A DNA stretch of 64,000 bases. Source: Anaerobium acetethylicum (lineage in GTDB: Bacteria > Bacillota > Clostridia > Lachnospirales > Lachnospiraceae). Each line of letters begins with the position of its first letter. Position 1 is the first letter of the stretch. A model generated the notes under the pieces. It had not been told where the DNA came from and searched no databases. It worked only from the letters and a program-made list of their open reading frames with translations. Where the stretch lies: the NCBI RefSeq assembly GCF_900096945.1, contig NZ_FMKA01000001.1:552291-616290 (forward strand), written 5' to 3'. Below, piece by piece: positions 2,450-6,770 of this stretch. A program made the translations under genes and the position numbers.

Positions 2450-2791
2450 TCAACAACCTTTCCAGAATTATGACAAACCATATATGTCAGATTATATCAC
2501 TACCCTATTTGCAAGTCCAATTTTATGCACCTCTTATACTTGCTTTTGTTTTGCTGCCTTATATACCGGCATGGAGTCCGGTTTGTTTAGTTAATCCCTC
2601 GTTCCACTTATATGCTAAGCTACAGAAATTCTCGGAAATTTTTTAGCCCTGCCGCATCTGAAATCCATCGAATAAGCCAGAAAATACGGCCTATGTAACA
2701 TGTGATGTTACATAAGCACACGATAATTTCTTGCGTTCATATGGCTATTGATATATGCTGATGGTAACAAAAACATTAAAGGAGCACCTAC
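2450..2791. other. intergenic region between ADP-ribosylglycohydrolase and XRE genes
   Basis: This 342-nt non-coding stretch separates divergently transcribed genes and should hold both promoters. The only strong structure is the palindrome at 2692-2714. I see no further gene. Confidence 0.5.
2692..2714. promoter_or_regulatory. perfect palindrome upstream of XRE regulator, candidate operator
   Basis: TATGTAACAT and ATGTTACATA form a perfect 10-bp inverted repeat around a GTG spacer, about 80 bp before the XRE gene. This is the size and position expected of an autoregulatory operator for a dimeric HTH repressor. The half-site ATGTAACATGTGA recurs inside the gene at 2955-2967. Binding by the adjacent regulator is inference. 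Confidence 0.55.
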
Positions 2792-3268
2792 ATGGAAATT
2801 GGTATAAAAATATCACAGGCAAGACGTGAGCTTGGCATCACGCAGATCGAATTAGCAGAAAAAATGTCAGTAACCAGACAGACTGTATCACGTTGGGAAT
2901 CAGGAGCCGCTTATCCTGATATAGAGAAGGTGGTTAACCTGGCTGAAATCCTTCATGTAACATGTGACTATCTTCTGATGACAGCTTCCAGCAGTAAAAA
3001 TGAAAGCTGTACTAATGAGAATGACAATGATCAGCCGCCCGCGACTTCTGTTACAAGACTGCTTTCTACGCTGGAAGGAAAAACAGTTCGCATGTCTTTT
3101 TATGATGATGAAGAAGATCTGGATGCTTTAAATGCAGCCTGTAAAGTCGAAGGATTTGAGGGCAACTGGATAAGAGTAATAATCAAAAACAAAAAGGAGT
3201 ACAGACAAAAGTTCATTGCACTTTCGTCCATACTCTCCTTTGAAATCGTTGATACGGAGGATAAGTAG
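2792..3268 (+). CDS. XRE-family transcriptional regulator with C-terminal acidic domain
   Basis: DNA-binding regulator of 158 residues. Residues 5-60 form a Cro/CI-type helix-turn-helix (GITQIELAEKMSVTRQTVSR followed by WESGAAYPDIEKVVNLAEIL). A polar linker (about 65-90) joins a C-terminal domain (about 93-155) containing SFYDDEEDLDAL and FIALSSILSFEI. That domain is visibly homologous to the C-terminal domain of the membrane protein encoded immediately downstream. Its stop codon abuts the next ATG, so the pair is translationally coupled. A 23-bp palindrome upstream is a likely operator. The signal sensed is unknown. Confidence 0.85.
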   Translation: MEIGIKISQARRELGITQIELAEKMSVTRQTVSRWESGAAYPDIEKVVNLAEILHVTCDYLLMTASSSKNESCTNENDNDQPPATSVTRLLSTLEGKTVRMSFYDDEEDLDALNAACKVEGFEGNWIRVIIKNKKEYRQKFIALSSILSFEIVDTEDK

Positions 3269-3625
3269 ATGGATTATGTAATTGGGATGTTGGCCTTCTT
3301 TGGTTTTCTCGCCTTTATACAAGTCAGCAGTCTCTCCACCAAGCTGAAGCGGATGGAAAGACACGAAAATGATGATTCCCAGATGCGGAGCAGTCTGAAG
3401 GATGATATGAAGTCGATTCTGGCTCCCTGTGTCGGAAAAGAAATCGTTCTTGATTTTTATGAGGACGAAGAAGAACCTGACATGCTTGACACCAGTAAGC
3501 ATAACAAATTTATTCTTATCGATGTAGATGATAAGTGGGCTTTCATCCGAATAGAGACTCCCAGAAAAACAGTGAATAAGCTGATTCGTTTTTCTTCAAT
3601 CAAGGGTGTGTCTTTTAAAAACTAG
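3269..3625 (+). CDS. small membrane-anchored protein sharing the regulator's C-terminal domain
   Basis: A 118-residue protein with one N-terminal membrane segment (residues 3-20, YVIGMLAFFGFLAFIQVS), a charged linker and a C-terminal domain with DFYEDEEEPDML and LIRFSSIKGVSF. The order GK-x-(V/I), FY-(D/E)-DEE, W-x-(R/F)-(V/I), SSI matches the C-terminal part of the preceding XRE protein, indicating duplication of the domain between a DNA-binding and a membrane-bound context. It starts on the base after the regulator's stop. A membrane-tethered partner or antagonist of the regulator is a reasonable inference; I do not recognise a named family. Confidence 0.75.
   Translation: MDYVIGMLAFFGFLAFIQVSSLSTKLKRMERHENDDSQMRSSLKDDMKSILAPCVGKEIVLDFYEDEEEPDMLDTSKHNKFILIDVDDKWAFIRIETPRKTVNKLIRFSSIKGVSFKN

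Positions 3626-3665: not shown

Positions 3666-6770
<3,105 letters not shown>

Follow-up and report, generated by a model that had tools for sequence, protein, structure and literature searches.

In Bacillus subtilis, the XRE regulator SinR is controlled by SinI, a neighbour-encoded homologue of the C-terminal part of SinR itself. The LytTR Regulatory Systems of Streptococcus mutans, HdrRM and BrsRM, consist of a regulator gene followed by a gene for a membrane inhibitor; the direct repeats of the regulator lie 4-11 bp from the -35 element, and loss of the inhibitor results in positive feedback, as shown experimentally (PMC6193735).

In this study, we examine an operon in a 64,000-nucleotide stretch of the Anaerobium acetethylicum genome (the window), in which an XRE regulator gene is followed directly by a gene for a small membrane protein. 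The pair resembles the LytTR Regulatory Systems in encoding the soluble regulator first and the membrane protein second, in being small and self-contained, and in having a regulator site at a fixed short distance upstream of its own -35 element, a position that implies positive autoregulation in both cases. It differs in that the site is not a direct repeat but an inverted repeat, 17-18 bp upstream of the -35 element and thus in an analogous position, and in that the membrane protein is single-pass. The regulator is also of another type, since its family matches include no LytTR model and point to XRE/HTH_3 instead, and it has a predicted Sm-like domain in common with the membrane protein, a feature that the parts of the LytTR account drawn upon here do not describe. 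Because its regulator is XRE and its site palindromic, the pair is not a member of the LytTR Regulatory Systems; by analogy, it is best read as their XRE counterpart, with partners that would recognise each other via duplicated Sm-like domains. SinR/SinI offers the likeness of a neighbour-encoded protein homologous to the C-terminal part of an XRE regulator, and the SinR HTH is a near fold match. However, SinI is a small, soluble, helical antagonist, whereas here the partner is anchored in the membrane and what the two proteins share is a predicted beta barrel.

In the open-licence literature, we found no account of paired XRE and membrane proteins with a domain in common, and one-component membrane signalling in Lachnospiraceae and other Clostridia is, to our knowledge, little studied. 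The pair defines a compact gene module of these bacteria together with a domain family for which Pfam, NCBIfam and PHROG have no model, and the LytTR regulator/membrane-inhibitor systems would gain an analogue built on an XRE protein. As the partner is recognisable by shared ancestry, the proposed mechanism predicts domain-domain binding and membrane recruitment.

Results

Organization of the gene pair

The genes and their ribosome-binding sites occupy the following positions of the window:

2778..2784, + strand: ribosome-binding site AAAGGAG of the regulator gene, from the sequence
2792..3268, + strand: XRE regulator gene, an open reading frame of 158 aa
3256..3260, + strand: ribosome-binding site GGAGG of the membrane gene, within the regulator gene
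3269..3625, + strand: membrane protein gene, an open reading frame of 118 aa

The ATG of the membrane gene comes immediately after the TAG of the regulator gene, with the GGAGG 8 nt upstream of it, and an abutting or overlapping layout is also present in most relatives. A start codon that overlaps or abuts the previous stop, together with a strong internal ribosome-binding site, suggests that translation of the two genes is coupled. The host genome is 4.6 Mb in size, and the closest relative fetched for the locus is Lachnotalea glycerini, with a regulator that is 79% identical. The flanking genes, as judged from sequence only, look like an ADP-ribosylglycohydrolase-type protein (1316-2449, - strand, divergent) and a GH2 beta-galactosidase (3666-6761, - strand, convergent); neither is tied to the pair in relatives.

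Homologous C-terminal domains in the regulator and the membrane protein

The two proteins are composed of the following parts:

2810..2974, + strand: HTH_3 DNA-binding domain of the regulator, residues 7-61 (Pfam E 9.6e-16; ImmR/SinR/P22 c2 folds)
3047..3256, + strand: predicted Sm-like C-terminal domain of the regulator, residues 86-155 (sequence comparison, model)
3098..3124, + strand: acidic loop FYDDEEDLD of the regulator, between beta1 and beta2 (alignments, model)
3278..3328, + strand: single membrane helix of the membrane protein, residues 4-20 (hydropathy 2.15; helix in model)
3404..3622, + strand: predicted Sm-like C-terminal domain of the membrane protein, residues 46-118 (sequence comparison, model)
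3455..3481, + strand: acidic loop FYEDEEEPD of the membrane protein (alignments, model)

An earlier note, made from the window's letters alone, had proposed that both proteins end in homologous domains with FY-D/E-DEE and SSI motifs, one copy attached to a DNA-binding domain and the other to a membrane helix. Both parts of this proposal were confirmed. The regulator has a Cro/C1-type HTH (PF01381, 58 bits against a cut-off of 23), and the fold matches of its model are to the HTH domain, with the ImmR HTH at Z 12.6 and SinR and P22 c2 near; the hydropathy of the membrane helix bears out the second attachment. The C-terminal domains, of about 70 residues, are 30% identical over 63 positions (E=8e-7 in a single BLASTP comparison), and alignment of a profile of 10 regulator domains with one of 12 membrane domains gave Prob 99.3 and E=4.5e-20 over 71 columns (hhalign). 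A profile built from membrane proteins only recovered the regulator domain at 1.3e-5 in this genome and at 2.3e-9 in another. Besides the letters FY[DE]DEE and SSI, the domains have in common a W and a K that are invariant across 18 of 18 aligned sequences, as well as G and D positions. The C-terminal domains of the regulator and the membrane protein are homologous. FY[DE]DEE alone would be weak evidence, and two acidic, low-complexity tails might look alike for trivial reasons or by chance; this explanation, whose probability we regard as negligible, is refuted by the profile-profile E value, the shared W, K, G and D positions and the same predicted fold.

The domains gave no match above cut-offs to any Pfam, NCBIfam or PHROG family, and only matches with E > 1 among PDB sequences. 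The label "sensor-like" that the earlier note had given to the shared domain found no direct support, and the domain may simply be a protein-protein (oligomerisation) module.

A predicted Sm/Hfq-like fold

Each protein was modelled with AlphaFold from its own alignment, and both models have the same order of elements: a short helix, beta1, the acidic loop, beta2, beta3, beta4, a short 3/10 turn and beta5. AF2 rated them with moderate confidence (mean pLDDT 76 and 68). Nearly all the solved structures closest to the membrane model are small barrels of Sm type or related to it, mostly oligomeric proteins of Sm/Hfq type: MnxE (Z 8.1), GerQ (8.0), E. coli Hfq (7.7), M. jannaschii Hfq (7.6), CgeA (7.5), RimP (7.3) and Gemin6 (7.1). 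A Z of about 7-8, obtained for the membrane copy only, is a level common among small barrels. The prediction for both C-terminal domains is a small beta barrel of Sm/Hfq-like type, and "Sm-like" is used here as a prediction because the fold scores are moderate. The earlier note had held that unrelated predicted folds would speak against its proposal; the same alpha-beta5 Sm-like barrel is predicted for both regions. Weak Pfam matches of membrane copies from other genomes that lack the regulator, to the RimP C-terminal SH3 (0.039) and Phage_Hfq (0.02), are consistent with this fold and are not evidence alone.

Like Hfq and other Sm-like proteins (MnxE, GerQ, Gemin6/7 and the RimP C-terminal domain), the domains here would consist of a helix and a five-stranded bent barrel, and the 3/10 turn preceding the last strand is also predicted in the membrane copy. 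In contrast, the domains here have no detectable sequence similarity to those proteins; they carry an acidic loop where those have a tight turn, lack the KH motif of Hfq and are joined to an HTH or to a membrane helix. Sm-like domains commonly self-associate.

No basic residue flanks the membrane helix on its N-terminal side and five follow it, and the membrane protein is predicted to be N-out/C-in. Its Sm-like domain would therefore lie in the cytoplasm, alongside the regulator.

The upstream palindrome and the promoter

The region upstream of the regulator gene contains four elements:

2692..2714: palindrome TATGTAACATGTGATGTTACATA, 10-bp perfect arms and 3-nt spacer, candidate regulator site (sequence, relatives)
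2716..2720: GCACA, which belongs to a conserved TGCnCA located after the palindrome and before the -35 element (comparison of relatives)
2731..2736, + strand: weak predicted -35 element TTGCGT, beginning 17 bp beyond the 21-bp core; TTG conserved in relatives
2754..2759, + strand: predicted -10 element TATGCT, 17-bp spacer

A perfect palindrome upstream of the pair had been put forward in the earlier note as a likely operator. The palindrome is real, with 10-bp arms, and is kept in place in relatives: L. glycerini carries TATGTAACATCCTATGTTACATA at its position and more distant relatives carry AATGTAAACnnnnnTGTTACATTT. A match within 3 mismatches arose in only 7 of 100 shuffles of the window. 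The 21-bp core is the sole perfect match in the genome, just as it is the sole exact site in each of 3 relatives, so the clear target of the regulator is the operon itself. Allowing up to 3 mismatches, the genome holds 6 places against 3 for a reversed control pattern; of 4 weaker sites checked, 3 are inside open reading frames and none has a convincing context. No clear second target emerged among them, and we claim no regulon elsewhere in the genome.

In all nine promoters compared, the 21-bp site is followed after 17-18 bp by a promoter of the form TTGnnn-17-TAnnnT. The mean consensus match at this fixed geometry is 8.7 of 12; in shuffled sequences, the mean of the best match anywhere is 5.5 +/- 0.2, and 0 of 2000 reach 8.7. 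Between the elements, most of the nine promoters are only 20-60% identical pairwise. Held-out loci, found by a later regulator-only profile, have the same layout: the match is exact in L096, and in L100 the palindrome is degenerate.

A site centred near -62 together with a weak -35 element is the usual mark of an activator-dependent promoter (class I activation). The palindrome overlaps the -35 or -10 element in none of the nine promoters, and its centre is about 62 bp before the expected transcription start. With 17-18 bp between it and a weak, conserved -35 element downstream, the site would be an activator site and not a blocking operator, and the layout makes positive autoregulation more likely than self-repression; a site upstream of the -35 element may also repress, such as by looping. 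Of the proposed operator, then, the conserved site on the operon's own promoter stands, but its position fits an activator rather than a blocking repressor.

Several further features of these sequences were noted. TGCnCA directly follows the palindrome, before the -35 element, in most relatives (L003, L004, L011, L012, L025, L046 and L047), and TTTGCGCA is also present upstream of two regulators of a second, diverged subfamily (L053 and L058). Within the HTH coding region, positions 2955-2967 repeat the left half of the palindrome and its spacer exactly over 13 nt, ATGTAACATGTGA; this copy is probably not conserved because L011 has Ser where the repeat encodes Thr. In genome G297 (L010/L002), near-identical repeats of about 50-60 bp (TTGGCGCCAGCGGATTGGAGTTCTTCCGAAAAGA...) lie between the regulator and the expected promoter region.

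Distribution of the pair

The survey covered the GTDB species set and about 1,000 distinct genomes drawn from the family, the order and the phylum. The membrane gene adjoins the regulator in 20 of the 20 loci that encode the domain of the regulator, which upholds the adjacency that the earlier note had suggested surveying. In four of these loci (L049, L052, L053 and L058) both proteins are clearly different and form the second subfamily, which can still be aligned to the first by hhalign (E 7e-8 and 3e-8). The acidic, D/E-rich loop is kept in both copies of subfamily 1 and is absent from subfamily 2 and from the regulator-less ("orphan") membrane copies. Neighbouring genes vary, with none common to the loci; because they differ from locus to locus, the pair appears to be a self-contained unit. 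It is patchy, in about 3% of the sampled genomes of the family, and was found in Lachnospiraceae and other Clostridia, many of gut type.

Regulator-less membrane copies are present in further genomes (L026, L027, L029, L050, L051, L054-L057 and L103). These orphan proteins of Clostridia have the same membrane helix, basic linker and Sm-like domain as the membrane copy here; they differ in having no adjoining XRE partner and no acidic loop, and in a conserved Met that starts the Sm-like domain. A domain tree (79 columns, many open forks) placed the membrane copies of subfamily 2 with the orphans and those of subfamily 1 with the regulators (99/98). In two genomes the regulator is damaged and the membrane gene intact, the HTH being lost in one (G267) and an internal deletion present in the other (G705); because both keep the membrane gene, its product may have a role of its own. 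A tblastn search with the membrane protein returned no match in plasmid or phage collections, and a mobile-element origin was set aside.

Discussion

We propose that the pair operates as a self-contained two-gene switch from membrane to DNA, a reading to which we give about an even chance. The XRE protein would bind the palindrome and most likely activate the promoter with the weak -35 element, and the membrane protein would serve as a single-pass, C-in anchor that presents the homologous Sm-like domain on the cytoplasmic side. In the resting state, the membrane copy would bind the regulator's copy through Sm-domain self-association, in mixed dimers or rings, and the bound regulator would be kept at the membrane or inactive, off the DNA. 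A change on the membrane side would loosen the complex and the freed regulator would drive its own operon, each burst also yielding more anchor and so limiting the response. The model is supported by the homology of the domains, the 20 of 20 pairing across two subfamilies and the fixed promoter geometry; from these we infer the pairing of the Sm-like domains, inhibition by the membrane copy and activation by the regulator. In a bolder form, which we consider unlikely, the duplicated domain would let regulator and anchor assemble into mixed Sm-type rings, and transcription would be set by how many subunits are tethered relative to how many are free; the pair would then represent one-step transmembrane signalling of a new class.

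Small XRE proteins of the SinR/P22 c2 type mostly act as repressors, and this favours an account of opposite sign. The XRE protein would repress the operon, and the membrane protein would be the working product, for example an envelope scaffold, that titrates the repressor via the shared domain so that its own level is set by membrane occupancy. The single strong site, upstream of the operon itself, would suit such an arrangement, as would the regulator-less copies and the two genomes that have lost the regulator, which imply that the membrane protein can be useful alone. We nevertheless find it doubtful, with the site clear of the -35 and -10 elements in nine of nine promoters, 17-18 bp upstream of a weak -35. 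The toxin-antitoxin alternative, an XRE antitoxin-repressor with a small membrane toxin, draws on the same two-gene, self-regulated layout and the small size of the membrane protein. It is made highly improbable by the homology of the two proteins in their C-terminal half, by membrane genes that occur without an XRE partner in many genomes and survive regulator loss, and by the lack of plasmid or phage matches.

The Sm-like domains might also be parallel sensors of one ligand and not partners, one reporting to DNA and the other acting at the membrane. The ligand could be a divalent cation at the acidic loop, given that the D/E-rich beta1-beta2 loop is conserved in both copies of subfamily 1, or RNA, which proteins of the predicted Hfq-like fold often bind. 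However, neither subfamily 2 nor the orphans have the loop, and by eye the matching strand has SSI in place of the lysine-histidine RNA-binding motif of Hfq. Partnership also explains the strict gene pairing better, and we judge parallel sensing rather improbable.

If the mixed-ring form of the model is correct, the regulator-less relatives may obtain the same mixture of tethered and soluble subunits from one gene, via an internal translation start. The Met that starts the Sm-like domain (M-[STA]K..) is present in all regulator-less copies compared (L050, L051, L054, L055, L057, L029, L027, L026, L030, L090 and L103), is often preceded by an SD-like GGAGG or AGGAG, and is mostly missing from the XRE-paired copies. 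This pattern is suggestive only of a second, soluble product: the SD score at the orphan internal starts was 4.8 against 4.27 +/- 0.41 for synonymous shuffles, 596 of 5000 of which were as high, a difference that is not significant.

Two loci have other arrangements. At L090 (G587, 1429-2020), the gene directly after that of an orphan-type membrane Sm protein encodes a 69-aa XRE protein that lacks an Sm domain, and a membrane protein comes next; this further XRE/membrane association is one of proximity only. In G632 (L089/L094), two Sm-like genes are adjacent, the second of 104 aa without a clear membrane helix and the first a 55-aa soluble open reading frame that is probably a frameshifted longer copy.
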